A stretch of DNA of 64,000 nucleotides from Turritopsis dohrnii. Taxonomy: Eukaryota; Cnidaria; Hydrozoa; Anthoathecata; Oceaniidae. The notes beneath the pieces are model-generated. The model was not told the origin of the DNA and did no database searches. It saw only the letters and a program-made list of their open reading frames with translations. The stretch is from positions 372,001 through 436,000 of the forward strand of contig BQMF02000170.1 of NCBI GenBank assembly GCA_027922465.2, read 5' to 3'. This document shows positions 3,535 to 43,314 of this stretch, one piece after another (position 1 is the stretch's first letter; the number at the start of each line of letters is the position of its first letter). Position numbers and translations under genes: made by a program.

Positions 3535-3830
3535 AGTCTTTTGAAAAGTTATGAAAAATATACTTTGAATGGACTGTAATATAATTGTAAAAACAGTAAA
3601 AAAAACACAACAGTTCAGACATTTTTCAGTTATTCAAATCAATCCAATCCAGCAATAATCTTGGAATTCAATTATTTACTTAACCGTACTGACTGAAAAT
3701 TACCCGAACAATAAAATAGTTTATATAAAATATGCAGCATGTACAATAGCAACATTCATATGCATTCCATGCTGCATGATAACAAAAAGTTCAACAAAAA
3801 TAAGCCATCGCAAGCAAGAAAGTTATATTG

Positions 3831-16874: not shown

Positions 16875-17167
16875 TTTATCCACATGCGTAATTTATAGGG
16901 TTAGCTGAGCTATTCTTAGATCAGAAATTTCGCATTTTCCCAAGAAAAAGTCTGGGAATATGCATTCGATTCCCACCGAAAATACTAGTTCTTAGGCCCT
17001 CGCTTACTAGTTCTTAGTCCCTCCTAGAACGAGAATCTACAATTTACCCATAACAGGTCGTGGGAATTTCCCAACTTTCCAAATATGGCAATGGGAGATT
17101 TTCCCACACTTCGTCAACTTATTGTTTTACTTATGACTCTCCAATTGAACTCAGTCTCCAGTCCACA

Positions 17168-20844: not shown

Positions 20845-20879
20845 TCAGAGATTGATTGATTCTCTTGTCTCTTTTCTTA

Positions 20880-21350
20880 AGCGCTATTTCCACGACCACT
20901 TTTGATCGAAATATTTCAACGAAGAAAAAAATTGAGCATGCACATTAAATATTTTCTGGTTTTCGAGCGAAAAATTTCTTTTCTATACTGTCCGAATGTG
21001 AGTTAAAATAATTTCAACTCCCTGTCGAAATCCCTTTGCGAAAAAACATTCGTCCAATCACAATCGTGCAAAATGTACTGAATGTGCTGTATTAAATTGA
21101 ACTATAGAATGACAATCCTGTCGAACAATTTAGAGAAAAGAATTATAATAGACGGTTTCTACTTGTGGTTGCTTTCGAACTAACTTCTGTATCTTTAATC
21201 TCCTACTGAATATGAAAACCAGCTAATTCAGTTCAACTTTTTTTATGTGGAAGTGGAATTCTATGATCGAAATATTTCTAGCAGAAATTGTTCTCCTCTA
21301 AAATTTTGGCTCGAAAAAGTTCGATCAAACATGGCCGTGAAAATAGCGCT
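20880..21350. mobile_element. MITE (471 bp) inside the EnSpm element, TTA-flanked
   Basis: Inverted ends AGCGCTATTTCCACGACCAC and, inverted, AGCGCTATTTTCACGGCCAT. TTA repeats directly at 20877-20879 and 21351-21353. No coding capacity. About 110 bp of its core (21128-21235) closely matches the core of another MITE at 46180-46686, whose ends are different. Confidence 0.75.
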
Positions 21351-21353
21351 TTA

Positions 21354-22025
21354 TACACAACATGTAGTTCGCAATCTTTTTATAGCGTTTCTGATTTGAT
21401 TGAAATAAATAAAATCGTTCATATAATAAGGAAACAAAAGGCATGAAAATCAAAGAAAATGTCTGCACATAGTTGGGTATCGCTCTCTGAATGATTTTTA
21501 ACCTAATGTGTGTAATTTACGCATGATCTCTGCTTTACCAGAATATCACTGTCTCTACATTTCCTTGAATGATTGTAATTTGTAAGAATATAACTCTGTG
21601 AAGGTTTTTGAAAATCATGTTTGTTTTTTACCTTCTGGCAATTCTCCGTAATTTCACATTCGCTAATTAGCGCTCATTCGCTAAAATTAGATTGCATTGA
21701 ATTCGTGTTCATCTATTTTCGCAAAATTTTACTGACGCAAAAAAATCGGGTAAGATCATCACAAGCTTTAATTGATAGGTCATTGTGACGAAACGGTCTG
21801 TGAATAGAATAAAATGAAATAAATCTAAATAAATGGTTACTAAATAATAAATTGCATTCAGAGAAAAATAATATTCAATCTTCAAACAATTAAGGAAGTC
21901 TATTTTTTCGCAGTTCTAAACAGAATTTCAACTGAAACTTTAAAAATTTAATTTAATTCTACGGTTTCGTGACAACCATAGAGATACGTGACAACTAACT
22001 AGAGATTGTTCGATTCTTGTACTAT
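21354..22025. other. right noncoding arm of the EnSpm element
   Basis: AT-rich, no supported gene. It lies between the MITE and the right inverted repeat. Confidence 0.5.
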
Positions 22026-22320
22026 AAGCGTTTTAAAAGCGTTGATTAGAGACTAAAAGTCTCCAAAACGTTTTTGTTCTGTTTCACATAAACGGATCAT
22101 CAACGGTTAAGTGTTCTATGGCGTTGATGATCCATTGAACAAGGTTATACATACGTTCATCAGCGTTGATGATCAATGCATTTAACACGCTTGAAAGTTT
22201 TGTCCAAAAATAAGCATTCATCATAAATGCTAGATAAACGCATTTGAAACGTTTTTGCATTTCAGGTGCATTCAACAAACGTTGAAGTGAATCAATTAAA
22301 TGCTTTTTGACTTAGTAGTG
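22026..22320 (-). repeat. right 295 bp terminal inverted repeat of the EnSpm element
   Basis: Inverted copy of 14151-14445, ending CTTAGTAGTG directly before the TTA duplication. Confidence 0.9.
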
Positions 22321-24124
22321 TTAATTCAAAACAAATTGATACCTTCCAACTTTTTCTTCTGTTCCAAAGTTACTACTGGACTGCAACCATTAATGGATTT
22401 TTGAAATGATATAGTCTGCTCTTCCCAAAACCATCAACGTCATGATTAAAACCATGAGTTCCATTTCTTTATGCTTTTTTTATTATTACCTAAAAAATTA
22501 GTACTTGAATTGTAATACCGAGACCTAATCATGCTATAACAATATTGAAGTAAAGAATAAAACAAAAAGAAAGAAAATTCAAGTACGCATTTATCCTAAA
22601 GATAACAATTAAAAACAAAATTTGGTCTATAAAGTCAACCGATAATGTGAGTCAATACGGGTTCACTCAACACTGGAGCTGAACAGAATAAAGACTTTTA
22701 CCTGGCATACACAACCAAACATCAAATTAATAAAAATAATTGAAACAACAAAATGCCCTACTTTGACCAAAACCATAATTGAATACCCAGAAGATATTAA
22801 AAGCAACAAATAAAAACATAATGCTAAACTTATATACCTAGCAAGTATGTATGTAGCAATTAACATAACACAAAATAATGAATGCCGTAAACAAATATAA
22901 ACTGAAGAAAAATATACGCCAGCAATGCTTCTTTCTTAAATAACCTTCTCAACATACCATGTATTTCATTTATACATTTATAATTTCGTTTATAAATAGC
23001 TACACTTTTTCTTTTCTGACCTAAAAGATTTCAGTAAAGAACAGCTACAATACTTACTACTACTGCAACCATATTTAAGCAAACCAAAACATAAGGCATA
23101 AATGGCTGGCAGAAAGGCATGCAGACAAAGCATCAAACATCGTCAATAGATACAATTTGACAGCATAACCACGTTCCCTACTTCGACAGCCATGAGAAAG
23201 GAAAACAGTCATAGCTGTGGGAACATTTTTAATTGATCTGTAAATAAATAAATCAAATCTTCTTTGCTAACTATAAAAATAATAATAGCGCGCGTTACCA
23301 AAACAAATTACTCTCGTCTTCGTTTTTCATCCAGTAGCATATAAACTAAACGAAAGAACTCATATAATAATAAGATATCTATTCAAAGCTATAGTATTTA
23401 ATCTTTTTCAAAACTAAATTAAAACCATTCCTTACTGTGTAAATAAACATCATTTTGTTCTGCATTTCTTCACTACACTTTCTTCTGTATAGCGATATTT
23501 GATAACTAAAACGTAAACAAACATTTAAATACATTTAAATACAAATACATGTTTCTAACTTGTTCTTTTATTAATCAAAAATAAAAGTTTTATAATAATA
23601 CCTTTTGTTCGTTCGATCTTTCTGCAGCTAATTTTTAAAAACTTCACTGCACTTCTTCTGTATATCTAAATATGATTTTTCATTGTAAACAAACGATAAT
23701 AAAACGTTTTATAATAATAACAATACCTTCGTGCATACAAACCTGTGTTTCTTCGTCAGTTCTTTCGTCGATTTGCTGCCTAAAACAATCAAATTTAAAT
23801 TGAAATATTCGTATACAAAAAGAAACACGTCTTCTTCGCGAAGTTTCTTGCTCACGAAATGATCGTTGACAAATTTCGAACGAAGAAATTGCATTGCTCG
23901 CACTCCCCCAAAGACGTTTTTCGGCTGATTTCCACTGCGCAAACCAAAAATAACAAAACGGAGGAGCATATACTAATCGCGGAAAATCAAAAAAACGCTC
24001 TCACCTCTGCGTGGCTTTACGACGAAAAGGGAAAAAATAAGAAGGTTTTGACCGTGAGAAAAAACCCAAATATGTCACTCTCTAAAATAAAAGTGGTATG
24101 CACAAAGCGAATTAGTATAATAAG

Positions 24125-24668
24125 ACTAGTAACTGGCATAAAAGTTTTTTACGGCTATAATTTCGAAAAGGATGTGTCAAAAATAGGTGACGAAAAATTA
24201 AATCACAAAATCGTGACTGGAAAGTGTTCCCATGTTGTAGAGCTCGAAAAGCTGATCAAAAAAGTGTATGGGATCGTTTCGCTACGATCAACTGTTGCAG
24301 AGATATCGTTGATCAAAGATTTTAATGACGTCATATCCGCAGTACCAAATAAAGTTTAGGCCTAAATGTTGCGTCACCCCGTCACCCGTATTGCGGACCC
24401 TAAAAAACGTCAGTTATCCCTATTGGTTCTCCAGATATTTCCCCAAAAACGTCGCGTTCGATTGGGGATGCAATGCAATGATTCCCCGTGATCATAAAAC
24501 ATCTGACGTCAAATGCCACGTGCTATTATACTAATCGTGAATGTGTCTTGCGTGGTCGAACTGCCGCTATATGACCACGATTAAGAAGATTTTGACCATT
24601 AAAAGAACAAAAATAAAACACTCTCTAAGTTAAATGTGTTACCCACTACGCGGATTAGTATAATAAGA
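24125..24668 (-). mobile_element. array unit 3, short nonautonomous Helitron (544 bp)
   Basis: Plus-strand borders GA|CTAG on the left and TAATAAGA|CTAG on the right; 3' hairpin present. 5' end TCTTATTATACTAATCCGCG. Confidence 0.85.
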
Positions 24669-25235
24669 CTAGTATCTCGCGTAAAAGTTTTTTACGACTT
24701 TAATTTCGAAAAGAATCTGCAGAAATACGACGCGTTCCCGTGTGCGTACCCCGTGACGAAAATTTCAATTACGGAATCGGGACTGGAAAATGAACCCATG
24801 TTGTATAGCTTGAAAAACTGAGCAAAAAAATGTATGGGATCGTTTCGCTACGATCAACCGTTGCAGAGATATCGTGAATTAAAGATTTTAATGACGTCAT
24901 ATCCGCAATACCAAATTAAATTTAGGCCCAAATGATGCGTCACCCTATCACCCGTATCGCGGACCCTAAAAAACGTCAGTTATCCCTATTGGTTCTCGAG
25001 ATATTTCCCCAAAAACGTCGCGTTCGATTGGGGATGCAATGCAATGGTTCCCCGTGATCATAAAATCATCTGACGTCAAATGCCACGTGCTATTGTACTA
25101 ATCGTGAATGTGTCTTGCGTGGTCGAACTGCCGCTATATGACCACGATTAAGAAGATTTTGACCATTAAAAAAACAAAAACAAAACACTCTCTAAGTTAA
25201 ATGTGTTACACACATTGCGAATTAGTATAAGTAGA
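24669..25235 (-). mobile_element. array unit 4, short nonautonomous Helitron (567 bp)
   Basis: CTAG end at 24669-24672 with hairpin; 5' end TCTACTTATACTAATTCGC at 25235. Contains an extra AATCTGCAGAAATACGACGC block near its 3' end, shared with unit 7. Confidence 0.85.
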
Positions 25236-25780
25236 CTAGTATCTCGCGTAAAAGCTTTGTACGGCTTTAATTTCGAAATGGATGTGCAAAACCCCGTGAC
25301 GAAAATTTCAATTACGAAATCGGGACTGGAAAGTGTTCCCATGTTGTAGAGCTTGAAAAACTGATCAAAAAAGTGTATGGGATCGTTTCGCTACGATCAA
25401 CCGTTGCAGAAATATCGTCGATCAAAAATTTTGATGACGTCATATCCGCAGTACCAAATAAAATTTAGGTCCAAATGTTGCGTCACTCCATCACCCGTGT
25501 CATCGACCCTAAAAAACGTCAGTTATCTCTATTGGTTCTCGAGATATTTCCCCGAAAACGTCGCGTTCGATTGGGGATGCAATGCAATGGTTCCCCGTGA
25601 TATCATAAAAACATCTGACGTCAAATGCCCCGTGCTATTATACTAATCGTGAATGTGTCTTGCGTGGTCGAACTGCCGCTATATGACCACGATTAAGAAG
25701 ATTTTGACCATTAAAAGAACAAAAACAAAACACTCTCTAAGTTAAATGTGTTACACACTACGCGGATTAGTATAATAAGA
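25236..25780 (-). mobile_element. array unit 5, short nonautonomous Helitron (545 bp)
   Basis: CTAG at 25236-25239 and 5' end TCTTATTATACTAATCCGCG at 25780. The hairpin is imperfect (GCGTAAAAGCTTTGTACGGC on the plus strand). Confidence 0.85.
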
Positions 25781-26319
25781 CTAGTATCTCGCGTAAAAGC
25801 TTTTTACGACTTTAATTTCGAAATGGATGTGCAAAAACCCCGTGACGAAAATTTCAATTACGAAATCGGGACTGGAAAGTGTTCCCATGTTGTAGAGCTC
25901 GAAAAACTGATCAAAAAAGTGTATGGGATCGTTTCGCTACGATCAACCGTTGCAGAGATATCGTCGATCAAAGATTTTAATGACGTCACATCCGCAGTAC
26001 CAAATAAAATTTAGGTCCAAATGTTGCGTCACTCCATCACCCGTGTCACCGACCCTAAAAAACGTCAGTTATCCCTATTGGTTCTCGAGATATTTCCCCA
26101 AAAACGTCGCGTTCGATTGGGGATGCAATGCAATGGCTCCCCCGTGATACGGCAAAAATAACTGACGTCACCCCGCGTGCTATTATACTAATCGTCAATT
26201 ATCAATGGTCTAACGAAAAAATGACCACGATTAAGAAGATTTTGACCGTAAATTTAGAAAAAACACAACACTCTCTAAGTTAAATGTGTTGCACACGATT
26301 GCGAATTAGTATAAGTAGA
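25781..26319 (-). mobile_element. array unit 6, short nonautonomous Helitron (539 bp)
   Basis: CTAG at 25781-25784 and TC at 26319-26318. The 5' half diverges from other short units (CGTCAATTATCAATGGTCTA), a variant shared with unit 14. Confidence 0.85.
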
Positions 26320-26809
26320 CTAGTATCTTGCGTAAAAGTTTTTTACGACTTTAATTTTGAAAAGAATCCGCAGAAATACGACGCGTTCCCGTGTGTGTAC
26401 CCCGTGACGAAAATTTTAATTACCGAATTGGAAATGGAAAGTGTACCCATGCTGTAGAGCTTGAAAAACTGAGCAAAAAAATGTATGGGATCGTTTCGCT
26501 ACGACCAACCGTTGCGGAGATATCGTCGATCATAGATTATAATGACGTCATATCGGCAGTACCAAATAAAATTTACGCCCAAATGTTGCGTCACCCCATC
26601 ACCCGTGCCACCAACCCTAAAAAACGTCAGTTATCGCTATTGGTTCTCGAGATATTTCCCCAAAAACGCCGCGTTCGATTGGGGATGCAATGCAAAGTCT
26701 CCCCCGTGATACGACCACGATTAAGAAGATTTTGACCATTAAAAAACAAAAAAACAAACACTCTCTAAGTTAAATGTGTTGCACACGATTGCGAATTAGT
26801 ATATATAGA
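26320..26809 (-). mobile_element. array unit 7, short nonautonomous Helitron with internal deletion (490 bp)
   Basis: CTAG at 26320-26323 and a TCTATATATACTAATTCGC 5' end. It lacks about 60 bp found in other units, between the GGGGATGCAATGCAA block and the CCACGATTAAGAAG block. Confidence 0.85.
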
Positions 26810-27352
26810 CTAGTATCTCGCGTAAAAATTTTACGGCTTTAATTTCGAAACGGATGTGCAAAAACCCCGTGACGAAAAGTTCAATTACGGAATCGGGACT
26901 GGAAAGTGCAACGATGTTGTAGAGCTCGAAAAACTGAGCAAAAAAATGTATGGGATCGTTTCGCTACGATCAACCGTTGCAGAGATATCGTCGATCATAG
27001 ACTTTAATGACGTCATATCCGCAGTACCAAATAAAATTTTGACCCAAATGTTGCGTCACCCCATCACCCGTATCGCTGACCCTAAAAAACGTCAGTTATC
27101 CCTATTGGTTCTCCAGATATTTCCCCAAAAACGTCGCGTTCGATTGGGGATGCAATGCAATGGTTCCCCGTGATCATAAAATCATCTGACGTCAAATGCC
27201 ACGTGCTATTGTACTAATCGTGAATGTGTCTTGCGTGGTCGAACTGCCGCTATATGACCACGATTAAGAAGATTTTGACCATTAAAAAAACAAAAACAAA
27301 ACACTCTCTAAGTTAAATGTGTTACACACGATTGCGAATTAGTATAAGTAGA
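26810..27352 (-). mobile_element. array unit 8, short nonautonomous Helitron (543 bp)
   Basis: CTAG at 26810-26813; 5' end TCTACTTATACTAATTCGC directly abuts the GC-rich 3' end of long unit 9. Confidence 0.85.
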
Positions 27353-29613
27353 CTAGCCGCCCAGGCGGCGTCGCTGGCCACCCATGTTCATGCATTGTGT
27401 CGCAGAATTTAACTTGTGTAAAAGTTTTTTACAGGCATTAATTTTTTAATTCATCTCTTACATTCAGAAGATTTAAAACAGAAAAAAATAGCAATATGGC
27501 TCAGAATATATATTTATACGCAGAAGAGAAGTAACTTTAGTGTAAAAATAGCAATATATAGCACAGAACTGTTTACCCAGACATACAAAACATTGAATAA
27601 CATTACAAAATGTTAATTGAAAACAAATTCATACCTTCCAACTGTTTCTTTTGTGCCAAAGTTACATTGGACAGCAATCATTAATGAATTTTTGAAATGA
27701 TATCTGTTCTTCCCAAAACCATCAACATCATGATAAAAACCATGAGTTTCATTTCTTTAACGGTTTACGTGCTTTTTTATTATTAATCTTACCTAAAAAA
27801 TATTTAACTGTATAAAAATGCAGAAAAAGATAATCATGCTATGGTTATGAAATAAAAAACAAAACAAAAAACAAAAAGTAAATTCATGTACGCATTTATC
27901 CTAAAAATAATTAATAAAAAAAACAAAATCAATGATAAAATTTGTAAAGGTTTTTGATTGGAAAGTCTATAAAATCAACCAATACTATAAGTTAATGCAG
28001 ATTAAACACTCAACTCAACACTGGAGCTAAACTAAATAAAGACTTTTAACGTGGGATAGACAACACACCAAACATCAAAATAATAAAAATAAAAATAATA
28101 CAAATAATTGAAACAATGAAAATGCTCTACCAAAGTCATAATTTAATACCGAAAAGATAAAAAGTAATAAATAAAAACATAATGCCAAACTTATATACCC
28201 AGGCATAGTACGTAAACGATTACCATCATAACACAAAGTAATGCATAATCAAGACAAAATATAAGAATCCATCCAGCAATGCAATGCTTCTTAAGTAGCA
28301 CAGTCATATCACATTGTATACAGCAATAATTACGAATTTCTGAAATACATTATCCGTTCATTCATTTCTTTAATGGTTTATATACACTTTTTCTTTTCTG
28401 ACCTAAAAGAAAAAAGATTTCAGTGAAGAACAGCTACAATCCACACTACTGCAACAACCATATTGAAGCAAACAAAAGCAAAAGACATAAATGACAGATA
28501 GGCAGAGAGACAAAGCACCAAACATCGTCAATAAAATTTAATAAAAAGCAGACATGGTTAAGATGAGATAAGACAGCATAAAACGTTCCCCATTTCCACA
28601 GTCATGAGAACCATTTTAATTGATCTGTAAATACATAAATCTTCTTTGCTAACTAATGGCGCGCGTTACCAAAACAAATTTTTACTGCGCTCCCCCTCGT
28701 TTTCGTTTCTTTTCAAAACAAACTTAAAATTAAAACCATTCGTTACCATGTAAATAAACATCATTTTTTTCTGCATTCACTGCACTTATTCTGTATAGCC
28801 ACATTATTTGATAACTAAAACGAAATAAGTAACCCTGAAAATGTGCTGGATACATTCTTCCACTCGCATTTCTTCTTTTTTTTTTCCACTGACATAAACC
28901 ATTTCACTGTGATTTTACGTTGTAAACAAACATTTAAATACATGCATAATAAAAGACATCAATACATCTTACTCACTTTTACGCATGTGCTAATTTTTCT
29001 TTTATTAATCTAAAATACAACAACAGTAAAAGTTTAGCAATAAGCACGATTATAAAACGTGTTTTAATAAACCTTCGTATATACAAAACCGTGTTTCTTC
29101 GTCAAATTGACAACCGAGAATGAAAACCGTTTGAAAGCAACAAACTTTTTGGAAATCGTCAGCCAATCAAATGATAACTCACTTACAGTACAATACAATA
29201 CAATAACAGTAAAAGTACAGCAATAAAAGTTTTATTATTAAAACTTTCCTGTTTCTTCTTCAAAAGAGCAGCAGAAATGAAGAACCTATTAACGAACTCC
29301 GTTGCTATGAATTTTTCAGCCAATAAAAATAGCGCATTTCAAGAGTTTTCCTTTATTAGCCAATAAAAACGATCAGAGCCGGGGCTTCCCCATATATAAG
29401 ATCCTTCTTCAAAACCACCGTTCCCTCATTTTGATGCAGTAGAAAAAGGTTTCATTTCGGCCTTTTTATTTGGGCATATAAGCCCATTGGCGAATGGACT
29501 AACTACCGCTATATGACCACGATTAAGAAGATTTTGACCGCAAATTTTGAAAAAAAAACCATCACTCTCAAAAATAAAAGTGGTATGCACAATTGCGAAT
29601 TAGTATAGCGCGA
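27353..29613 (-). mobile_element. array unit 9, long nonautonomous Helitron (2261 bp)
   Basis: 3' end of a second type: the palindrome GCCGCC..GGCGGC directly abuts CTAG. 5' end TCGCGCTATACTAATTCGC at 29613. No coding region. Near its 5' end (plus coordinates 29163-29400) are three CCAAT boxes and a TATATAAG. It provides an empty site for the EnSpm insertion at about 27590-27620. The next unit starts TAG instead of CTAG at this border. Confidence 0.85.
29163..29400 (+). promoter_or_regulatory. promoter-like cluster: three CCAAT boxes and a TATA box in long Helitron unit 9
   Basis: CCAAT at 29163, 29321 and 29360 (each preceded by AG or TAG), then CATATATAAG with TATATAAG at 29393-29400. The same cluster is at 42860-43103 in unit 15. 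The repeated CCAAT plus TATA spacing resembles a compact strong promoter such as those of histone genes. No gene follows, so it may be a captured promoter. Inference only. Confidence 0.4.
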
Positions 29614-31323
29614 TAGTATCCCGGGTAAAAACTTTTTACCGAACTTAACTTCGAAAACATTTTCGAAAACTCGCGTAAAAGTTTTTTACGGCCTTAATTT
29701 CGAAAAGGAAGTGTCGAAAATAGATGACACGAAAAATTAAATCGCATGCGTCCAATTCACAAAAAGTAAAAGTAGTAAAGTAAAAGTAGTATAATAAGAT
29801 TGTTTTCTTGACCAAACATCAACATAATTATTCATTATACTTAGGTATAAAAATTAAATATACGAAAATACAATGATGAAGAAATTGATACCTTCCAGTG
29901 ATGATTCTTTCCACTAATGCAATATCAGAATAGCAAATTCTTTCAAATAATGTAATGATCTTCACCAACAAAACCAACATCATGATTTAAACCATGACAT
30001 TCCACTGTAACCATTTTTTTATAATATTAACCTAAAAGAATATATTATAAGACCATGAAAATAAGGTTCTGGTAGTGTCTGAGGTAAAAAGAATGATTTA
30101 GATTTCATAGAATATCATAGAATATGAATACTTCAGATTTAATAACCATAAGATAACAAAAATAATATCTTAGTATCACACATCCGATCAAAATTTTTCC
30201 AGAAACCCTGTTCAAAAAGACCTGCATTCAGTGTAAAAGGTTTTAACAGGTGCTAATAAAGAATGCGTGTCAGTTGTAGTTAGCCAAGGCATATATTTTA
30301 TAAATTATATTACTTATTGTAACACAAAAGTACAATAAAATATGTTCATTAGAAAGGTGTATTAAATAACGTTTTGATTAAGCATTAACCATTCGCTACG
30401 ACATTTAAACAGCAATATCATGCATCATGGAACTGCAAAATAAGTTGGTGAGGTAACGATAACGATATTATTTCGAACTTCGCATAGACAAAATGTTTGA
30501 TGAAATTGATCACTAAATATCATGAGCAATGGATACGGACGTTGTTTGCAATCATTCATTATTGCCAATCTGTAAATGTAATCAAAAAATAAGTTGTGAG
30601 TAGCAACAAAATAAGCATGAATGATGTGTTTGAATCTGACTCACCATTGTTTCCCTTCACATCTAAACTAACTGTAAACATCTGAATATCTTTATAATGT
30701 GTCTAAACCTATAATCATCTACTGCATACAAAGAACAAATCATCATGTAAAAGTAGCCTTAAAAACTGATTGGAAACTAAGCTGACAAAACCAAGAAACG
30801 TTAATCTTTATTTACAATCACAAAAGCCCTATTATTTAAAAGAAAGAAGAAATACATATTAGATGGCACTCCATTAATCATATCTGTAACCCAATATGCA
30901 AAATCGTCCAAAAAATCACCGTGACGGAGAGCATTCTTAGCAAAATTGTGTAGATTTCTATAGAAATGCACTCCTTCGCAGATATTTCTTAATAAATGTG
31001 CTGACTGGTAAAGAACTGAAAATATATTTTCAAAATTGTAAAATTTCTGTTCGACACTAATTCAATACTAATTGATAGAGTGACAGACATACTTCAACTC
31101 AAATATTAGGTTAGTAAATTGACAATGTGAAAGCTGGAATGTCAGGATACTGTGATGAAAGAGGTAAGCCAAAGAAATTGGAGTAAGCAACTTTATTCTA
31201 AATAAAACTAATTATCTAAATTATCTAAAATATGCCCTCATCAGTTTTCTATTCATTTTAGTGAGTCTATGTAAAAAAAGTCAAATGAAAATTTCCTAAC
31301 TCTCACTAAAAGGTCTCAGTAAC
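29614..31323. other. noncoding 3' region of the autonomous Helitron
   Basis: AT-rich. Starts with partial short-unit 3' sequences (two hairpin-like ACTTTTTACC and GTTTTTTACGG blocks within about 100 bp), then unique sequence without a supported gene. Confidence 0.5.
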
Positions 31324-33112
31324 TCACTTTAATGAATAGAAAACTGATGGGGCAAAAGCGTTAAAATTATATTGGTTCACAACAGTTGGCTGTATTTGGC
31401 TGCGGTTGGTAGCTGGAACAGGTGTTTTTTTATTTTTTTTGCTCCAGATAAATTTCGGGTGGTCCCGACCCCCGAATCTCTTCCACGCCTGAAAAGCCGC
31501 ATTAGATCGGGGGCCGGGATGGGTTTTTCGGTAATCCCGAAATTCTTTGTACGAATCTACAATGTATAGTTGAAACAAATTTTATTAGTGAAGAAACAAA
31601 CAGGTTGATATTAGAATTGATAAAATACTATATCAGGGAAACTTACATTTCCTTTTATTTGCCACAGCTGCGTCTAAAATAAAATGCAAAAGACTAAGAC
31701 GCAATTTCACACATGTTACGTCAACATTGGAATTGCAAGAAATATTACCATTAGGTTTGGCGGATGATGGTAGGTCAGCTAAAAGAAATGTATAAGTAGA
31801 TTGTGAAAGTCATAGCATATAGAAATGGAAACTACAAAGTTATGTCAACTAAAACCCTTACTCTTTGCCACATTCTGCACGTTATTGGTATCTAATGAAG
31901 GAAATTCATAATAATATAATATAATATAATTCATTCAATTTACAGAATGTCCAAACATACATCGTAGACAAAGGAGTATAAATAGATAGATTGTGAAAGT
32001 CATAAAATATAGAAGGAAAACATTAATGTGTATTGACTCTTACTATCAGCTGCTGATAAAGCATTATCTAAAAGATTTAAAAAGTAGCTGTCATATAAAA
32101 GAAAGACAAGAAATTGAAGCTACAATGTTATGTTAATACAAACCCTTACTCCTTTGCCACATTCGGCGCAATATTGGTATCTAATGCAGAAAAGGACAAA
32201 GTTATTATTGCAGTATAGAATAGGTCCAAATATAAACAAAGGAGTAGATTGTGAGTCATAGCATATAGAAAGAAAATGTTAATGTGTATTGACTCTTACT
32301 TTACTAACAGCTGTTGGTAAAGCATTCTCTAAATACAGAAGGTTTAAAAAGTAGCTGTCATACAAAAGAAAGATAAAAGAAATTGAAACTACAAAGTAAT
32401 GTCAATTAAAACCCTTACTCTTTGCCACATTCGGCACGTTATTGGTATCTAATGAAGGAAATCACGAAGTTATAAATACAATGTCCAAATATACATTAAA
32501 GACAAAGGAGTATAAGTAAGTAGATTGTGAAAGTTATAACATATAGAAAGGAAACGTTGATATTAATTGATTCTTACTATCAGCTGTTGGTACACAATTA
32601 GCCATAGAACAAAAGGTCCAGGAAGTAGCATATATTCAAAAATGTCATACACTGTAACTCAAACAGCCTGATTCAGCAGATGAAAAAACCAAGAGAAAAT
32701 GAATTGAAAACTCCAATAAATATCCTTACTATATTCGATATTTTCACTGCCATCTGTATAAAGGAAAAGAAGATGTTGTAATGGCAGCATGTAAATCCAA
32801 AATTTATAAGATGAGATATATAAAGCAGATAAGAATTTTTACCTTCACCAAGTAGTTCTTTTTCTCGCTCTGAAATGAAATCAATTTGCTTTGAGAATAC
32901 TGACTACTTTCATAGAAAATAATCTAATATATTACAGACGAAATTGTATAAATGAAAAAACTGGAGTTATTTTAAAAATAATTTTTACCTGCACTAATAA
33001 ATTTGTCTTCTGACTCTGAAATGAAATCAATTTGATTAGTATTTTAATGTCTCTTACAGAAAGTTTAAAAAAGTAATGTTTTACCGTTGCACACATCCAT
33101 GGGAGTTCCCAT
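31324..33112 (-). CDS. micro-exon gene inside the autonomous Helitron; unknown product, about 167 residues
   Basis: ATG at 33112 with an upstream in-frame TGA. Exons (minus strand): 33112-33085 (28 nt), 33015-32989 (27), 32869-32843 (27), 32753-32730 (24), 32448-32419 (30), 32328-32305 (24), 32067-32044 (24), 31891-31862 (30), 31778-31749 (30), 31673-31647 (27), and a last exon 31556-31324 (233, with stop). Each micro-exon is a multiple of 3, is phase 1-1, and has an AG acceptor and GTAAG/GTAAA donor. Peptides: ESEDKFISA, EREKELLGE, DGSENIEY, TNNVPNVAK, NALPTAV and so on; the last exon reads SYKEFRDYRKTHPGPRSNAA. Two relic exons (32180-32150 with one extra base; about 32578-32610 without an acceptor) would be skipped. 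No family recognised. The structure resembles schistosome micro-exon genes in form only. Confidence 0.6.
31797..32610 (-). repeat. direct repeats of a 190-275 bp module holding a pair of micro-exons
   Basis: The block AGATTGTGAAAGTCATA..TATAGAAA recurs at about 31799, 31988, 32246 and 32522. CCTTACTCTTTGCCACATTC recurs at about 31855, 32145 and 32412 (one copy with an extra C). The repeats carry copies of the same two micro-exon types, so the gene has grown by tandem exon duplication. Confidence 0.7.
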
Positions 33113-33545
33113 TATTATATTAATTCACTAAATGAAGAAAAAACAAAAGTTACAATCATGGAGAGATAATATGGAGCATGCCCTGACTTTTAGTTCATGA
33201 ATTGTCCACAAAGTTTACTTCATGCACAATTCATGGTAACGGAGTACACGGCGAGAACGTAAGTCAATGGGACTTGTACTCCACCTAAAAAACAACAAAA
33301 TCTACAGGTTGTTCATTAGGTACAAAGCTGCCAAACTACAGTGCCACAACAACTGTCATCAGTGACTACAGCAATGGTTTACAGTAATACTAATGAGCCA
33401 CAACATGTCTCAACAGTGGCGTAACTTACAGAAGAAGCCAAAACAACTGTCAACAGCAGCCACCACTGTAAGTGTTTACTCTATCTTATTATATAACAAA
33501 ATAAGCCACAACAACAAATTCAAATGTTAAGGTGAATCACGACAT

Positions 33546-36500
33546 TCACAGCAACACTTGTGGAAAGACAACATTTTGAGTATACATCTTTCCATTAATA
33601 TAACCTTGCTTACCCATACCGGCAACTTTGATTTTAACATTACCAAATGCTTTTGCCCTTGAACAGGCAACATACAACTGTCCATGTGAAAAACACGGTC
33701 TCTGCAAAAACAAACCAATTTTTTCAAACGTTTGACCTTGGCTTTTGTTAATAGTAAAAGAGTATGCCAACCGAATAGGAAGTTGTCTGCGCTTCAATAC
33801 AAAAGGCATACCTGTGTCAGATGGTGACAATTGTACTCTAGGTATAAAAATCAGTTCCCCAACTGCTGACCCTGTCAAAACTTCAGCCTTAATAAAGTTA
33901 TGCGACAATTCACGAACAATCAAGCGGGTGCCATTACAGAGACCTTTCCTGATGTTCAGATTCCTCAAAAGCATAATAATAGCCCCAACTTTAAGTTTCA
34001 AACAATGTGGAGGCATACCGGATGGTGTAATACTATTCAGAAAATCAACCGGATAGTTTTGCTGCTCTTCTTCATCGTCACACAGCACTTCATCAGCACT
34101 GTAATAGCAAACCGCATCTCCAGGCAGTCTGTCCAACACCTCATTATTAATGATCAACGATTGATCATTTGTCGGTGTCAGAATGGCTGTGGTGGCGTAT
34201 TCGTGAGGCTCCAGTCCGTCGTACATTACAGATATAATCGAAGTTTCTTTAGGAACAACACAACAATCAGGAATTTCGATGGAACCTTTAGCAGGTTCGC
34301 TTTGTTTGGTTGGAAGTTCACCGTTACCAAGTTGCAACAGCCAATTACAAAATTCTTGCTCTTCCGGTCTAGCTCTCATATTTTCAGTGAGAGAGTATTT
34401 TGCCACTGATGCCCATAACACAGAACTGGTCAAGCAAACTTCAATAACATCGGTTGGCTTTCCCTTTTTCACAACCGGCAAACACTGACGAAAATCACCA
34501 CCCCACAAAAGAACCTTGCCACCAAAAAGTGCATCACTGCCACAAATATCCTTGAGTAATCTGTCCACAGCATGGAAAATGTGGGTAGAAACCATAGTTG
34601 CTTCATCGATCAGAAACAGGTCGACACTTCGAAGGTATTCCGCATGTTTCGAAGCTGGTGTTATATTACATACGCTATTTTCTAAAACAGGAACAGGCAA
34701 ACGAAATAATGAATGCAATGTACAACCACCAGACAGTAAGGTGGCTGCAATACCTGTATATGCAGCAGTAGCAACTTTCCAACCTCTGGCTCTGCATTCT
34801 GCAATAACATAATTGTATGTAAAAGTCTTACCTGTGCCAGCCGGTCCATCTAGGTAAAACAATGTTTCAAGTTGTGGTAAACCATTACGCACATTTGAAA
34901 CTGCACACAAAATGGCATCTGCCACAACTAACTGCTGTTCGTTAAGCAAAGGCCTTACCTGTTCCGCCCTGTCGATGTAAATATTTACATCAACTTCTTC
35001 CTGAGCAACCTGTTCAACCAATTCAGGAAGATTAAACTGTGTTAAAGTCATTCCAAATTGTCTCAGGACATTATCAATATAACCCAAAACCCTTTGCTCA
35101 GCTTGAGCAACAGCCAGTGTTCGAAGGTAGTCTTCACACAGATTCCCCTTGAACGTATTCCACAATTCAAGAGGATTAGAGGGCTCACAGTGAGTCAAAA
35201 TAGTAACAAACAGTTGTCTAAGCTGTTGGGGCATTTGAAACGTTGAAGCCTCTTCCAATGTATTGTGCCACTCTGCGTCATCTTGCAGAAGATGTCTGGC
35301 AATACATGCTTCTCGGAATGTGTTGTAAACAACTCCATCGAAAGTACGCAAATCCTCGAAAGACGTAACACCTGCAACATGTAGCAGCAAAACTCGAAGA
35401 AAAAAACGTTCTCCTTCTGACGGTCGAGCATTATATAACCGAGCGACTATAGGCTTAAATGTTTTTTTTCGTTTTTTCCATTTTTTCTCCTTATCATGAA
35501 AGACATAATGATACGGAATATCTGAGTAAAGATACCGCCGTGCATCAGGATCGTCTACATTCAGATTATACCATGCTGTTAGGTGACTATCCTTTAATGC
35601 CCCTTCAGCAGCTGCCTCTTCTTCGCCAGCTCTAAAATAAACTTGATGACGATCAGGTAAATGAACAGCTAATCGCTTAATAGTATGTGATTTTTCATGC
35701 ATAGAGAACTCAAATATTCTCCATAATGCTTCAGGTGCACTGACATATCGAGCATCCAGAAATGTTTTTATTTCGTCATGTTCCAAACGTTCATTAATCT
35801 CCACATTAGCACGATCATGTCCCTTGTAAACATATTTAAAGAGATATTTCACGCTCCTGATTGTGGTACATGCTTCCAAATTTATGTGAGCATTATACTT
35901 CTTGGACAACCATGGACAGTATGGAACTACCCATTGATTATCTAAGTCCACATTTCTTACCCTCACAGTACGACCATTGTGACGTCTGCGATAGAGCGGA
36001 TACCCATTTGCATTCATTTGGGTTGCTTCACAAAATCGCTTTGGAAAGTCCTTGGTGCAGTTGCCATCATCACCCATACAAACTGCATTAGGGTTAGCAT
36101 TCCCACAGGGACCATGGATCATACATGACTTGATGATATTATGAAGTTCTGGTTCCTGTTCAGTATCTGGTATTTCAGCAGAAATTAAGCTGTCAATATC
36201 ATCAGCATTACGCAGTTTGTCCTCTTGTGCTAAATGGATAAGAATATGAGCATGAGGTAAAGAACGTTTCTGAAATTCAATAACATACAAATGAGAGATG
36301 GCTTTTCCCAAAACACCATTTTTATTTATATCCTCCAAAAGCGCTTTTAATTTCAAATTGAAAACACGTGTAATCAAGTCCGGACGATAATGTGCAGGCT
36401 CATTATCTAAGTTTTCCATGATCTCCCTCCATTTGGGATTGCACGTAAATGTGCAAAACAAATCCGGCTTGCCCATTTTAGTAACCATAGCCATAGCATC

Positions 36501-38046
36501 TTGATAATTCTGTTGCATTGCCCTAGGACCACCCTGAAAAGAAGACGGAAGAATCACCGGTCTGCCTGCATGAAGGCCACGATTTTCTGCAACATTTTCA
36601 AGATAATCAATAAGCCCTTGATATTGCTCAACACGGAAATTGCCCTGGTTTTGACGAACATAATTAAGACGGTCAGATTCAACTTTGCAGTAACAATCTA
36701 CAGCATATTGTTGAAGTAATCTTTTACCTTTTAATATGGGGCTAAAAGCATCTCTAAATGCAAACCTATAGGTATAATATTGCAGCATGGTCGTACGACG
36801 TTGCTGGCCTGTTGCATATTCTGCTACATGAGGAATGGCGGAATTCCAACCCATCTCTCCTCTTGGAAAAAATACAGGATAAACCATTGGATCGAGATTA
36901 GGCGAATGCACAGGCAAATCTTGCAATGGTCTATCTCTAGGGTAAACAACGATGTCCCGAGCCAATGGTGGTGCACCGTCTTCACCAACAAAAACATCAG
37001 CTACTTCATCATGGTGAGGTAGATTGTACCGACGCCGGTCACCACCACTTCTCAAATGCATCCTAACCTGGAAAACAATAGCAAAGGTCTGTAAATATTA
37101 GTTCAAAGATTTTTAAATATTAATTTTCATATTTTCCATTTACCTCAGATGGGCGACGATTTTGTTCATTTGCAAGTTGAAATTCCTCTGCTTCTACCTC
37201 ACTCATGTGTTTATAAGCAGCTGCATATGGACTCTCCCTCAAAATTATGTCTTGCAAAGTTTGCATGACTTCGGGGGAACAACCTTGATTTTCTGGTCTT
37301 GCCATTCTCTCATTGAATGCATCCATACCATCATAGATATATAACTGACCAAAAGATGGAGGAATACCCGGTGGTGGGTGCAAATTACCTGTTCGGTGAC
37401 ATACCTGGCCATTAATACGAAAAACTGGTGGACCACGACCTTGTGGCACAACCAATTTTGCTCCCATCGAAGCAAAAGCAACCGAACTATTGAACTTTCG
37501 AATATTTTCTTGAAAGTTCTTTGATTGATTAGAATCACCTACTAAAAGTTCTTTAAGATCATTAGGATAATAAATGTCATCTAAATGAACTTTACCATTG
37601 TGACAGCATTTAAAATTGGTCTCGTCACCAAACATCTTGGCACCACAAAACTGACACACCTTGTCCATGGCACCAAGATAATGTAGCTCAGGCATTTGGT
37701 TTTGTCGAGCAGCACGATACAATGCATTCCGTTGAACATCACGTCTAGCCCTCATATGCTGTGCATTCTCATTTCGCCTGACTAATCTTTCAACTGGCTC
37801 TTCATCTTGACGATATTCAACACGCCTTTGAGCATTGTTGATTCTAAGTCTGTCATTTTCTAATAATGGCTGGATGTTATTTTCCTGAAGCTGTTGGCGC
37901 CTTGCTTCAGCTACATCCTCATTTGCATGCCTACGCAGAATAACAGAGCGAATTTGCTGCTGATCAGGTGGCTGCAAAACAAACTGACCATTCCTAAAAA
38001 CTGCTTGGAAGCCAGGAATAATATTAGTACCTCTTATATTAAACAT
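33546..38046 (-). CDS. Helitron RepHel protein (HUH rolling-circle nuclease plus PIF1-like helicase), intact
   Basis: Two exons, 38046-37144 and 37067-33546, joined in phase across a 76-bp GTAAAT..TTCCAG intron, give about 1474 residues. Order: a basic N-terminal region; a zinc-knuckle-like CQFCGAKMFGDETNFKCC (residues 131-148); a Helitron_like_N domain with GGPRAMQQNYQDAM and FCTFTCNPKWREI; the HUH metal site LPHAHILIHL (about 570); two tyrosines in VKYLFKYVYKG (about 707-711); then a PIF1-like helicase with Walker A LDGPAGTGKTFTYNYV, Walker B FLIDEATMVS, and a C-terminal SFTINKSQGQTFEKIGLF motif. The nuclease would nick at the TC and CTRR ends and the helicase unwind. No lesion seen. Confidence 0.93.
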
Positions 38047-38885
38047 TACAATACAGAAACACTAATAACAATAGAAGAAAGAAACAAAACCACCACCCCC
38101 AGCAGAGTGAAGAAACAGTGCAAAAAAACCTGGTGGAAGCAAAATCAAACCTTTCTTTCTACAAACTAACAATGTAGGGTCAACAGCAACAAACAGAGAA
38201 CTAAACAACCTAGGGGAAAGCGAAAAAAACTGAACTTGATAAACTGATTAACTGACACTCTGAAAACTGATTGCACGAACACAAACAAACATTAACGTAT
38301 AGGTTACAAACCTTTCTTTCAACTATCTTTCTTTCTACTACACAGGGCAGCAAGGAACAAATTAACCTGAAGTGAATAATAAAAGAGACAGAAAAGTTAA
38401 TAATAGACAATAAGTAGTCTCTTAGGTTAGCTTGGAAAAATCTTCGTGGAGTTTGCCATCTTTAAAATAATAAACACAATTATTACCTCGTTACGTAATT
38501 CTTTCGCTTTCGATAAACTGATAAACTTTATAATGAACTGGATAAACTGCAATGATGAACTTGATTAGACAGACAATTGCAATTGTCTATTCGTATTGTT
38601 TTTTTTTTCTCGAGCGTAACCGCACTGAATAAAAAACTTAATTTGTTTACTTTTTCCAACGAATTGGTTGCTTTGGTTTTTCCGATTTCGGCAACCAATA
38701 AAAACGGCGAAACGGCGATCACGTGTCAAAACAAATGATGAAAAATAGGCATTTTGAGGGTTTCTTCAATGGTCGAACTGCCGCTACATGACCACGATTA
38801 AGAAGATTTTGACCATTAAAAAACAAAAAAACAAACACTCTCTAAATTAAAAGTGGTATGCACAACGCGGATTAGTATATATAGA
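38047..38885. other. 5' leader of the autonomous Helitron
   Basis: Noncoding. Its last 130 bp (38760-38885) share the 5' end of short units (CCACGATTAAGAAGATTTTG; ACTCTCTAAATTAAAAGTGG), which shows how short units could be mobilised by this copy. Contains a run of T near 38600. Confidence 0.6.
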
Positions 38886-39405
38886 CTAGTAACTGGCGTA
38901 AAAGTTTTTTACGGCTTTAATTTCGAAAATGTTGTCACGAAAATAGGTGACGAAAAAACCGTACCCATGTTGTAGAGCTTGAAAAACTGATCAAAAAAGT
39001 GTATGGGATCGTTTCGCTACGACCAACCGTTACAGAAATATCGTCAATCAAAAATTTTGATGACGTCATAGCCGCAGTACCAAATAAAATTTAGGCCCAA
39101 ATATTGCGTCACTCCATCACCCGTGTCATCGACCCTAAAAAACGTAAGTTATCTCTATTGGTTCTCGAGATATTTCCCCGAAAACGTCGCGTTCGATTGG
39201 GGATGCAATGCAATGATTCCCAGTGATCATAAAACATCTGACGTCAAATGCCACGTGCTATTATACTAATCGTGAATGGTGTCTTGCGTGGTCGAACTGC
39301 CGCTATATGACCACGATTAAGAAGATTTTGACCATTAAAAAAACAAAAACAAAACACTCTCTAAGTTAAATGTGTTACACACTATTGCGAATTAGTATAA
39401 GTAGA
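38886..39405 (-). mobile_element. array unit 11, short nonautonomous Helitron (520 bp)
   Basis: CTAG at 38886-38889 with hairpin, abutting the autonomous unit's TC end. 5' end TCTACTTATACTAATTCGC at 39405. Confidence 0.85.
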
Positions 39406-39973
39406 CTGGTATCCCGGGTAAAAACTTTTTACCGAACTTAACTTTGAAAAGGATGGGTCAAAATCGCCTTTCCCGTGAACAATCCCCGTGACAAAAATTT
39501 TAATTACGGAGTTGGAAATGGAAAGTATATCCATGTTGTAGAGCTCCAAAAACTGAGCAAAAAAATGTATGGGATTGTTTCGCTACGACCAACCGTTGCA
39601 GAGATATATCAGCGATCAAAGATTTTAATGACGTCATAGCCGCAGTACCAAGTAAAATTTAGGCCCAAATGTTGCGACACCCCGTCACCCGTATCGCTGA
39701 CCCCAAAAAACGTCAGTTATCCCTATTGGTTCTCGAGATATTTCCCCAAAAACGTCGCGTTCGATTGGGGATGCATTGCAATGGTTCCCCCGTGATCATA
39801 AAAACATCTGACGTCAAATGTCACGTGCTATTATACTAATCGTGAATGTGTCTTGCGTGGTCGAACTGCCGCTATATGACCATGATTAAGAAGATTTTGA
39901 CCATTAAAAAAACAAAAACAAAAGACTCTCTAAGTTAAATGTGTTACACACATTGCGAATTAGTATAAGAAGA
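39406..39973 (-). mobile_element. array unit 12, short nonautonomous Helitron (568 bp), variant CCAG end
   Basis: The plus-strand border reads GA|CTGG, so the minus-strand end is CCAG rather than CTAG. A hairpin of the CCCGGGTAAAAAC type precedes it. 5' end TCTTCTTATACTAATTCGC. Confidence 0.8.
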
Positions 39974-40520
39974 CTAGTATCTCGCGTAAAAGCTTTTTAC
40001 GGCTTTAATTTCGAAATGGATGTGCAAAAACCCCGTGACGAAAATTTCAATTATGAAATCGGGACTGGAAAGTGTTCCCATGTTGTAGAGCTCGAAAAGC
40101 TGATCAAAAAAGTGTATGGGATTGTTTCGCTACGATCAACCATTGCAGAGATATCGTCAATCAAAGATTTTAATGACGTCATATCCGCAGTAGCAAATAA
40201 AATTTAGGCCCAAATGTTGCGTCACCCCGTCACCCGTGTCACCGACCCCAAAAAACGTCAGTTATCCCTATTGGTTCTCGAGATATTTCCCCAAAAACGT
40301 TGCGTTCGATTGGGGATGCAATGCAATGGTTCCCCGTGATCATAAAAAAACTGACGTCAAATGATGCCACGTGCTATTATACTAATCGTGAATGTGTCTT
40401 GCGTGGTCGAACTGCCGCTATATGACCACGATTAAGAAGATTTTGACCATTAAAAGAACAAAAACAAAACACTCTCTAAGTTAAATGTGTTACACACTAT
40501 TGCGAATTAGTATAAGTAGA
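39974..40520 (-). mobile_element. array unit 13, short nonautonomous Helitron (547 bp)
   Basis: CTAG at 39974-39977, hairpin present, 5' end TCTACTTATACTAATTCGC at 40520. Confidence 0.85.
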
Positions 40521-41045
40521 CTAGTATCTCGCGTAAAAGTTTTTACGGCGTTAATTTCGAAAATAGGTGACGAAAAATTAAATCACAAAATCGTGACTGG
40601 AAAGTGTACCCATGTTGTAGAGCTCGAAAAACTGAGCAAAAAAATGTATGGGATCGTTTCGCTACGATCAACCGTTGCAGAGATATCCAGCGACCAAAGA
40701 TTTTGATGACGTCATAGCCGCAGTACCAAATAAAATTTAGGCCCAAATGTTGCGTTACCCCATCACCCGTGTTGCCGACCCTAAAAAACGTCAGTTATCG
40801 CTATTGGTTCTCGAGATATTTCCCCAAAAACGTCGCGTTCGATTGGGGATGCAATGCATTGACTCCCCCGTGATACGACAAAAATAACTGACGTCACGCC
40901 GCGTGCTATTATACTAATCGTCAATTATCAATGGTCTAACGAAAAAATGACCACGATTAAGAAGATTTTGACCATTAAAAAAACAAAAACACAACATTCT
41001 CTAAATTAAATGTGTTGCACACGATTGCGAATTAGTATAAGTAGA
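40521..41045 (-). mobile_element. array unit 14, short nonautonomous Helitron (525 bp)
   Basis: CTAG at 40521-40524; carries the CGTCAATTATCAATGGTCTA variant of unit 6; abuts long unit 15. Confidence 0.85.
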
Positions 41046-43314
41046 CTAGCCGCCAAGGCGGCGTCGCTCGCCACCCATGTTCAGGTTGCGTTGTGTCGCA
41101 GAATTTAACTTGTGTAAAATTTTTTTACAGGCATTAATTTTTTAATTCATTTCTTACATTCAGAAGATTTAAAACAGAAACAAATAGCAATATGGCTCAG
41201 AATATAAATTTATACACAGAAGAGAAGTAACTTTAGTGTAAAAATAGCAATATATAGCACAGAACTGTTTACCCAGACATACAAAACATTGAATAACATT
41301 ACAAAATGTTAATTGAAAACAAATTCATACCTTCCAACTGTTTCTTTTGTGCCAAAGTTACATTGGACAGCAACCATTAATTAATTTTTGAAATGATAGT
41401 CTGTTCTTCCCAAAACCATCAACATCATGAGAAAAACCATGAGTTTCATTTCTTTAACGGTTTACGTGCTTTTTTATTATTAATCTTACCTAAAAAATAT
41501 TTGAATTGTATAAAAATGCAGAAAAAGAATCATGCTATGGTTGAAATAAAAAACAAAACAAAAAACAAAAAGTAAATTCATGTACGCATTTATCCTAAAA
41601 ATAATTAATTAAAAACACAAATTCAATGATAGAATTTGTAAAGGTTTTTGATTGGAAAGTCTATAAAATCAACCAATGCTATAAGTTAATGCAGGTTCAA
41701 CACTCAACACTGGAGCTAAACTAAATAAAGACTTTTAACGTGGAATACACAACCAAACATCAAAATAATAAAAATAATTGAAACAATGCAATGAAATGCC
41801 CTACCAAAGCCATAATTTAATACCGAAAAGATAAAAAGTAACAAATCAAAACATAATGCCAAACTTATATACCCAGGCATAGTACGTAAACGATTACCAT
41901 AACACAAAATAATGCATAATCATGACAAAATATAAGAATCCATCCAGCAATGCAATGCTTCTTAGCACAGTCATATCACATTACAGCAATAATAATGAAT
42001 TTCTGAAATACATTATCCATTCTTCTCTTAACTAAACCTCACAACATCATAATTTAACCATGTGCTTCATTTCTTTAATGGTTTATATAACTTTTTCTTT
42101 TCTGACCTAAAAGAAAAAGATTTCAGTGAAGAACAGCTACAATCTACACTACTACTGTGACAACCATACAAACAAAAGCAAAAGACATAAATGACAGACA
42201 GGCAGAGAGACAAAGCACCAAACATCGTCAATAAAATATACAGGGAAATTTAATAAAAAGCAGACATGGTTGAGATGAGATAAGACAGCATAACACGTTT
42301 CCCATTTCCACAGTCATGAGAACCATTTTTAATTGATCTGTAAATAAATAAATCTTCTTTGCTAACTAATGGCGCGAGTTCAAAACAAATTTTTACTGCG
42401 CTCCCCCCCCCCCCCCCCCCCCCCCCCCTCGTTTTCGTTTCTTTTCAAAACAAACTTAAAATTAAAACCATTCGTTACCGACCGTGTAAATAAACATCAT
42501 TTTTTTCTGCAAAAACGAAATAAGTAACCCTGAAAATGTGCTGGATACATTCTTCCACTCGCATTTCTTCTTTGTTTTCCACTGACATAAACCATTTCAC
42601 TGTGATTTTACGTTGTAAACAAACATTTAAATACATGCATAAATAAAAGACATCAATACATCTTACTCACTTACGCATGTGCTAATTTTTCTTTTATTGA
42701 TCTAAAATACAACAACAGTAACAGTTTAGCAATAAGCACGATTATAAAACGTGTTTTATAATAATAAACCTTCGTATATACAAACCTGTGTTTCTTCGTC
42801 AAATTGACAACCGAGAATGAAAACCGTTTGAAAGCAACGAACTTTTTGGAAATCGTCAGCCAATCAAATGATAACTCACTTACAATACAATACAATACAA
42901 TACAATAACAGTAAAAGTACAACAATAAAAGTTTTATTATTAAAACTTTCTCGTTTCTTCTTCAAAAGAGCAGCAGAAATGAAGAACCTTATTAACGAAC
43001 TCCGTTGCTATGAATTTTTCAGCCAATCAAAATAGCGCATTTCAAGAGTTTTCCTTTATTAGCCAATAAAAACGATGAGCGCCGGGGCTTCCCCATATAT
43101 AAGATTCTTGTTCAAAGCCACCGTTCCCTCATTTTGATGCAGTAGGAAACGGTTTCATTTCGGCCTTTTTATTTGGGCATATAAGCCCATTGGCGAATGG
43201 ACTAACTACCGCTATATGACCACGATTAAGAAGATTTCGACCGTAAATTTTAAAAAAAACCATCACCCTCTAAAATAAAAGTGGGATGCACGATTGCGGA
43301 TTAGTATAGCGCGA
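41046..43314 (-). mobile_element. array unit 15, long nonautonomous Helitron (2269 bp), array 5' end
   Basis: 3' end with GCCGCC-AA-GGCGGC abutting CTAG at 41046; 5' end TCGCGCTATACTAATCCGC at 43314, preceded on that strand by A. Closely colinear with unit 9. Contains a C tract of about 26 bases near 42403-42428 and the CCAAT/TATA cluster at 42860-43103. Noncoding; it is a second empty site for the EnSpm insertion, near 41300. Confidence 0.85.
42860..43103 (+). promoter_or_regulatory. promoter-like cluster: three CCAAT boxes and a TATA box in long Helitron unit 15
   Basis: CCAAT at 42860, 43023 and 43063, then TATATAAG at 43096-43103, in the same order as in unit 9. Kept in both copies apart from small changes (CCAATAAAAA versus CCAATCAAAA). 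Confidence 0.4.

Follow-up and report, generated by a model that had tools for sequence, protein, structure and literature searches.

A predicted micro-exon gene beside RepHel in an autonomous Helitron of Turritopsis dohrnii

The micro-exon genes (MEGs) of schistosomes contain many tiny exons that are mostly multiples of three nucleotides (nt) in length, so that skipping keeps the reading frame (PMC10526429). Among mobile elements, Helitrons are known to capture host sequence (PMC6431247), and those of maize contain captured gene fragments that are alternatively spliced into several isoforms (PMC4528327). Accessory genes described in Helitrons and Helentrons encode RPA, an OTU protease or an AP endonuclease, with RPA found in cnidarian Helitrons (PMC4067079, PMC6431247), and tandem Helitron arrays in bat and silkworm are thought to come from a bypassed termination signal (PMC4067079). 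In the cnidarian Hydra, fewer than 417 nt separate the genes of the RFC140/flp operon, and the acceptor is preceded by a T-rich stretch (PMC3273482). We describe a predicted micro-exon gene that lies behind the RepHel gene of an autonomous Helitron in the hydrozoan Turritopsis dohrnii (NCBI GenBank assembly GCA_027922465.2, contig BQMF02000170.1, positions 372,001 to 436,000 of the forward strand). This stretch of 64,000 nt was analyzed as a whole and is called the window; all positions are counted from its first letter.

The micro-exon gene occupies the minus strand, and its joined frame encodes 167 amino acids (aa) with no internal stop (Table 1). Between the ATG exon and the last exon, we resolve internal exons of 24, 27 or 30 nt, all of them symmetric and in phase 1. 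The ten predicted introns measure 69-281 nt, with acceptors that are YAG after T-rich tracts and donors that are GTAAA or GTAAG, with the single exception of one GTAAT. A preliminary description of the locus had proposed a 28-nt ATG exon, symmetric phase-1 micro-exons and a 233-nt last exon, and this arrangement stands, with the span of 31324-33112 exact and the internal exons numbering nine. Its claim that any internal exon can be skipped without loss of frame is borne out as well, all nine being symmetric and in phase 1; by arithmetic, skipping them in any combination would give 512 in-frame forms of 86-167 aa. Part of the series arose as repeats: a two-exon unit of approximately 268 base pairs (bp) is tandemly duplicated in three copies, and exons 2 and 3 are also duplicates.

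To place this series against chance, we scored chains of symmetric exons of 12-42 nt, each preceded by a YAG with 9 or more pyrimidines among the 15 nt before it and followed by a strong donor, with introns of 40-400 nt and the chain open in one phase. The micro-exon gene yields a chain of 9, versus at most 2 in the rest of the 64-kb window on both strands, and it yields 7 when at least 10 of 15 pyrimidines are demanded. A first-order Markov null trained on the element region (100 sequences of 64 kb) reached at most 3 in the same setting and at most 4 in a looser one. Without the duplicate exons, the chain falls to 6, or to 5 at the strictest setting. A harsher, second-order Markov null trained on the sequence of the gene gave a longest chain of 3 in 31 of 60 runs, of 2 in 22, of 4 in five, of 5 in one and of 7 in one. 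Two of the three phases are open throughout the internal exons, and the third is stopped in most of them; phase 1 is required by the start exon and the last exon alike, and codon usage singles it out as well. Exons have a GC content of 0.42 versus 0.28 in the introns. When scored on the codon usage of RepHel, the micro-exons reach 0.421 in frame versus 0.110 and 0.241 off-frame, with introns at -0.21 to -0.30 and RepHel itself at 0.361. Corrected for composition, the codon score of the micro-exons was matched by 0/2000 base shuffles, and by 3/2000 with the duplicate exons dropped, against a null that is approximate in that stops in the shuffled sequences were turned round. The structure of the micro-exon gene is beyond chance.

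The duplicated units also permit a comparison of exons with their surroundings. The three two-exon units differ from one another at 7-9 of 54 exon sites, versus 60-75 of 262-266 other sites, and the indel columns between them number 0-6 in exons versus 64-82 elsewhere, a lower exon divergence that leans toward constraint. Exons 2 and 3 point in the opposite direction, with differences at 10 of 27 sites against 2 in the adjoining 24 nt on the acceptor side, a pattern that fits either loss of constraint or diversification.

As the preliminary description had it, the gene lies inside an autonomous Helitron, for which both termini are found and RepHel is unbroken. The 5' end of this 9,272-bp unit is TCTATATATACTAATCCG, with its TC at 38885, and the 3' end consists of the hairpin GGTAAAAAGTTTTTACC followed by CGGGATACTA at 29614, directly abutting the TC of the next unit. 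This 3' end reads CTA after the hairpin and 7-8 nt, one base short of CTAG. The stretch 38885-29614 is a canonical autonomous Helitron. RepHel runs for 1,474 aa without a stop and has the Pfam domains Helitron_like_N, PIF1 and Pif1_2B; residues H270, H272, Y406, Y410 and K745 (numbered in its open reading frame (ORF) of 1,171 aa), which we take to be the HUH, two-tyrosine and Walker A residues, are invariant in an alignment of 13 proteins. Among the best 120 of 4,646 matches, the nearest named kin are hydrozoan gene models from Hydractinia, Hydra and Clytia (52-58% identical), with the top match at 65% and other named animals at 54% or less. By this kinship alone, the host would be a hydrozoan or close to one, although transposons can pass from one host to another. 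No RepHel relatives were found in viral contigs, and the bacterial and archaeal genome contigs gave 3 relatives out of 113 stretches (34-40% identical), in which the longest micro-exon chain is 3. Pfam gave no match to a Helentron-type AP endonuclease in the 1,171-aa RepHel ORF and none to RPA, OTU protease or AP endonuclease domains in the three frames scanned.

The autonomous unit belongs to a head-to-tail array. By self-comparison, the window from 13 to 43 kb consists of repeated pieces in a single orientation, and the array holds the autonomous unit, units of 2.26 kb and of 490-568 bp, and a CACTA insertion. A regular joint has a hairpin such as GTAAAAA..TTTTTAC, approximately 8 nt, CTAG and then the TC of the next unit (e.g., TCTACTTATACTAATTCG); the 14 joints comprise 12 CTAG/TC, one CCAG/TC and one CTA/TC, where the slash marks the boundary. 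At two joints, located at the ends of 2.26-kb units, a GC-rich hairpin (GCCGCC..GGCGGC) stands directly before TAG instead. The left end of the array is A/TC at 43314, and the right end is CTAG/T at 13228, where the letters that follow match the unit 5' end at 9/18 positions and may belong to a cut-off unit rather than to the host, so that insertion between A and T is putative. The 2.26-kb units lie at 43314-41046 and 29613-27353, with a diverged and interrupted third near 23.8-13.9 kb; those at 27353-29613 and 41046-43314 are non-autonomous and have a number of conserved blocks. In a three-way alignment of the units, indels are scattered, and by eye the units have no open frame in common. The CACTA (En/Spm) element, at 14150-22321, is inserted in a Helitron unit and has terminal inverted repeats of 296 bp that are 99.7% alike, a tnp2 transposase ORF at 18193-19641 and, by eye, an apparent 3-bp TAA target duplication.

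Within the autonomous unit, the micro-exon gene sits between RepHel and a tail, approximately 30090-29614, that is common to the 2.26-kb units at about 60-69% identity. The micro-exon gene thus belongs to the DNA of the element, but the other units give no sign that it is old in the family. We considered a Helitron that ends before the gene, as hairpins at about 33.2-33.28 kb with CTAA behind them might suggest by eye, and rejected it on the family joints at 38885 and 29614. The gene or its remnants were likewise sought in the 2.26-kb units and rejected, the matches of these units to the autonomous unit being the first ~112 bp and the ~500-bp tail; one further match has 43 nt at E 0.005-0.04.

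RepHel and the micro-exon gene are each preceded by a strong 3' splice site that ends at the same distance from the ATG (Table 1). Among the 2,550 ATGs in the window on both strands, those with an acceptor 3-25 nt upstream number 384, 243, 122 and 38 at cut-offs of at least 9, 10, 11 and 12 of 15 pyrimidines, respectively; the acceptors of RepHel and the micro-exon gene pass all four cut-offs, and 2/4 other long-ORF starts checked pass the weakest. Downstream of the acceptor at 33128, each of the three frames meets a stop before it reaches the ATG of the micro-exon gene, and therefore exon 1 is a start exon rather than an internal coding exon. On the same stops, we rejected the micro-exons as coding 3' exons of RepHel. 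That the acceptor stands exactly 15 nt from the ATG in both genes suggests splicing of a leader, perhaps the addition of a spliced leader as in Hydra operons; a cis leader exon is equally possible, with a GTAAGT donor at 33429 as a candidate. The RepHel stop lies 418 nt from the end of the acceptor and 433 nt from the second ATG, and these 433 nt contain neither AATAAA nor ATTAAA, with AATAAG at 33490; the first canonical poly(A) signal past the stop of the micro-exon gene is listed in Table 1. An inverted repeat spans the stop codon and folds into a hairpin of -45.4 kcal/mol (z -8.7), far stronger than shuffles, and by this repeat (31236-31352), the last codons of the gene are duplicated in inverted form downstream. 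Rfam returned 0 matches.

The predicted product is divided in charge. The 91 residues before the last exon are acidic and Asn/Ala-rich, with an isoelectric point (pI) of 4.7 (4.1 for exons 2-4 alone), and the 76-aa part from the last exon has 15 basic versus 3 acidic residues and a pI of 10.7. A single-sequence AlphaFold model of the last-exon part places two helices in the first 26 residues; because this model is of low confidence, it is the charge that points to a binding role. The N-terminus, MGTPMDVCNESEDKF, has no hydrophobic run and no secretion signal by eye. A search of the protein collection, with 67 candidates, gave no homologue of the spliced product at E up to 10, a search that distant kin could escape, and the last-exon protein has no relative in the same collection.

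From features that can be read directly off the DNA, namely the Helitron termini, the RepHel frame, the exon series with its own frame and codon usage, and the acceptors before both ATGs, we on balance favor a Helitron in which an unbroken RepHel is accompanied by a second, micro-exon gene that would give accessory nucleic-acid-binding proteins of 86 to 167 aa. RepHel and the micro-exon gene would share one transcript driven by the Helitron promoter, from which the message of the micro-exon gene would be freed by splicing at the acceptor 15 nt before its ATG, to either a cis leader or, in a hydrozoan host, a trans-spliced leader. Exon skipping would then alter the length and charge of the acidic Asn/Ala-rich tail, the basic last-exon domain behind it would stay constant, and splicing could thereby tune the binding of this domain to DNA, RNA or RepHel, a mechanism for which charge and exon form are the grounds. 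New exons may come from tandem duplication of exon-intron units, with frame-losing copies that can be skipped. A working, alternatively spliced accessory gene is thus our best reading and an unproven one. The more specific version, a two-gene Helitron operon in which spliced-leader addition releases the second message and alternative splicing turns it into up to 512 in-frame basic proteins with variable acidic tails, we regard as rather doubtful. We know of no other accessory protein in a mobile element that is diversified by micro-exons. In the open-licence literature, judged by titles and the opening lines of abstracts, none of the papers matched describes a micro-exon gene in a Helitron, and no title among the matches listed there concerns a cnidarian or hydra micro-exon gene.

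Several observations weigh against a working accessory gene. Its product is without a homologue, and no known domain could be assigned to it, as Pfam is empty up to E 10 and a search of the PDB by sequence gave one meaningless match at E 1.1; the model of the last exon has a pLDDT (predicted local distance difference test) score of 62.6. The codon score of the last exon barely stands out, at 0.200 in frame versus 0.120 and 0.121 off-frame, with 0.226 in one antisense frame. Within the series, one of the three copies of the 30-nt exon is 31 nt long and would break the frame of the product if included; erosion has left 6 nt of one 24-nt exon copy, and exon 6 has a competing donor 5 nt further that is frame-breaking. 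The argument from poly(A) signals is weak because ATTAAA (33048, 31333) and AATAAA (31659, 31586, 31434) also occur within the micro-exon gene. Finally, the 2.26-kb units of the same array carry no trace of it.

Among the rival explanations, it is possible, though less likely, that the Helitron took up a complete micro-exon gene of the host, which rides as a passenger and whose splicing and any function are those of the host gene and not for transposition. Capture of host sequence by Helitrons is known (PMC6431247), and, with the shared tail starting near 30090, the gene is an additional segment that separates RepHel from this family tail and that the 2.26-kb units lack. A captured gene is less readily reconciled with the lack of a relative in the protein collection and with a codon usage that follows RepHel, although host genes may share this usage. 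We consider it unlikely that a formerly working micro-exon gene is decaying in an element that no longer needs it. The 31-nt frame-breaking copy, the 6-nt remnant, the doubled donor at exon 6 and the base missing from the terminal CTAG at 29614 would all fit such decay, whereas the frame is complete from ATG to stop if the two defective copies are left out, the 1,474-aa RepHel has no break, and the duplicated exons differ less than the rest of their unit (7-9/54 versus 60-75/262-266).

It is highly improbable that there is no gene at all and that chance splice-like sites were multiplied by tandem duplication in T-rich sequence. Such an origin could draw on the collapse of the nine exons to six independent ones, on the two open phases of the internal exons and on the gene-trained null that hit a chain of 7 once in 60, but the first-order null stays at 4 or below in 100 sequences and the rest of the window at 2 or below, the GC and codon signals speak against it, and the start and last exons share a phase. 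A micro-exon gene within a rolling-circle transposon whose RepHel is unbroken would show that mobile elements can diversify a protein by symmetric micro-exons, and would provide a vehicle for the spread of micro-exon genes, of which those compared here are animal genes for secreted proteins in schistosomes and aphids. With RepHel as a partner and with its ends defined, the element should be easy to trace and compare in further copies, and whether the gene is an accessory or a captured passenger is thus directly testable in any host assembly that comes with RNA data.

Outside the array, the window contains an ORF for a DDE_Tnp_4 transposase within 2467-4499 on the plus strand and an adjoining 222-aa ORF on the minus strand, presumably the usual pair of a Harbinger-type element. 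The ORF at 58740-60287 has a modest match to PF07592 (DDE_Tnp_ISAZ013, E 8.3e-7), a domain named after a Rhodopirellula transposase, and the ORF at 43919-44854, without a Pfam match, is one that we take by eye to be alpha-kinase-like.

Table 1. Positions of the Helitron array, its genes and their exons and signals in the window.
Feature	Position	Strand	Basis
Head-to-tail Helitron array, A/TC (43314) to last CTAG (13228)	13228..43314	-	
Autonomous Helitron unit, 9,272 bp	29614..38885	-	Junction list, hairpin fold
Strong 3' splice site TTCTTCTATTGTTATTAG, ends 15 nt before RepHel ATG	38062..38079	-	
RepHel gene: exon 38046-37144, intron 37143-37068 (76 nt), exon 37067-33546	33546..38046	-	
Strong 3' splice site TGTTTTTTCTTCATTTAG, ends 15 nt before micro-exon gene ATG	33128..33145	-	
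Micro-exon gene, ATG to TGA	31324-33112	-	
Exon 1 (coding part), 28 nt, ATG	33085..33112	-	
Micro-exon 2, 27 nt	32989..33015	-	
Micro-exon 3, 27 nt, duplicate of exon 2	32843..32869	-	
Micro-exon 4, 24 nt	32730..32753	-	
Eroded copy of 24-nt exon, doubtful, 6 nt left, excluded from model	32578..32583	-	
Micro-exon 5, 30 nt	32419..32448	-	
Micro-exon 6, 24 nt	32305..32328	-	
Frame-breaking 31-nt copy of 30-nt exon, excluded from model	32150..32180	-	
Micro-exon 7, 24 nt	32044..32067	-	
Micro-exon 8, 30 nt	31862..31891	-	
Micro-exon 9, 30 nt	31749..31778	-	
Micro-exon 10, 27 nt	31647..31673	-	
Last exon, 233 nt, 76 whole codons and TGA	31324..31556	-	
Inverted repeat, 31-nt arms 55 nt apart, spanning stop codon	31236..31352	-	
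AATAAA, first canonical poly(A) signal past micro-exon gene stop	31192..31197	-	

When compared to the schistosome MEGs, to which the preliminary description had likened it, the micro-exon gene has the same symmetric micro-exon series, and in exon form the likeness holds. It does not extend further: schistosome MEG proteins share an N-terminal signal peptide, whereas none is apparent by eye here, and no sequence kinship to the schistosome genes was found in the protein search described above (67 candidates, none at E up to 10). The introns of schistosome MEGs range from 100 to almost 5,000 bp (PMC10526429), versus 69-281 nt in our gene, and (retro)transposons are reported near their 5' ends, whereas here the gene is inside the transposon. 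The bicycle genes of aphids also have many small internal exons, nearly all of which start at codon position 2, as do 9/9 in the micro-exon gene, and the structural classifier for bicycle genes gives it a logit of 7.1, which is a yardstick only, the classifier having been trained on aphids (PMC9168663). Bicycle proteins are secreted in aphid saliva and implicated as gall effectors, whereas the product here has no signal-like N-terminus and no kinship to them was found. By the features tested, the micro-exon gene belongs to neither the schistosome MEGs nor the bicycle genes.

The arrangement of the two genes resembles that of Hydra RFC140/flp in the spacing of approximately 400 nt between the genes and in the T-rich stretch and acceptor that precede the second one; the Hydra genes are host genes for which trans-splicing was shown experimentally, whereas here it is only proposed. 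Like the accessory genes of Helitrons and Helentrons, the micro-exon gene adds coding capacity to an autonomous element, where such genes stand beside RepHel or are fused to it, but these accessory genes have recognized domains, whereas the micro-exon gene, with its ten predicted introns, encodes none that is known. In maize Helitrons, finally, the exons come from disparate host genes, while in the Turritopsis element, a symmetric series of micro-exons stands beside RepHel.
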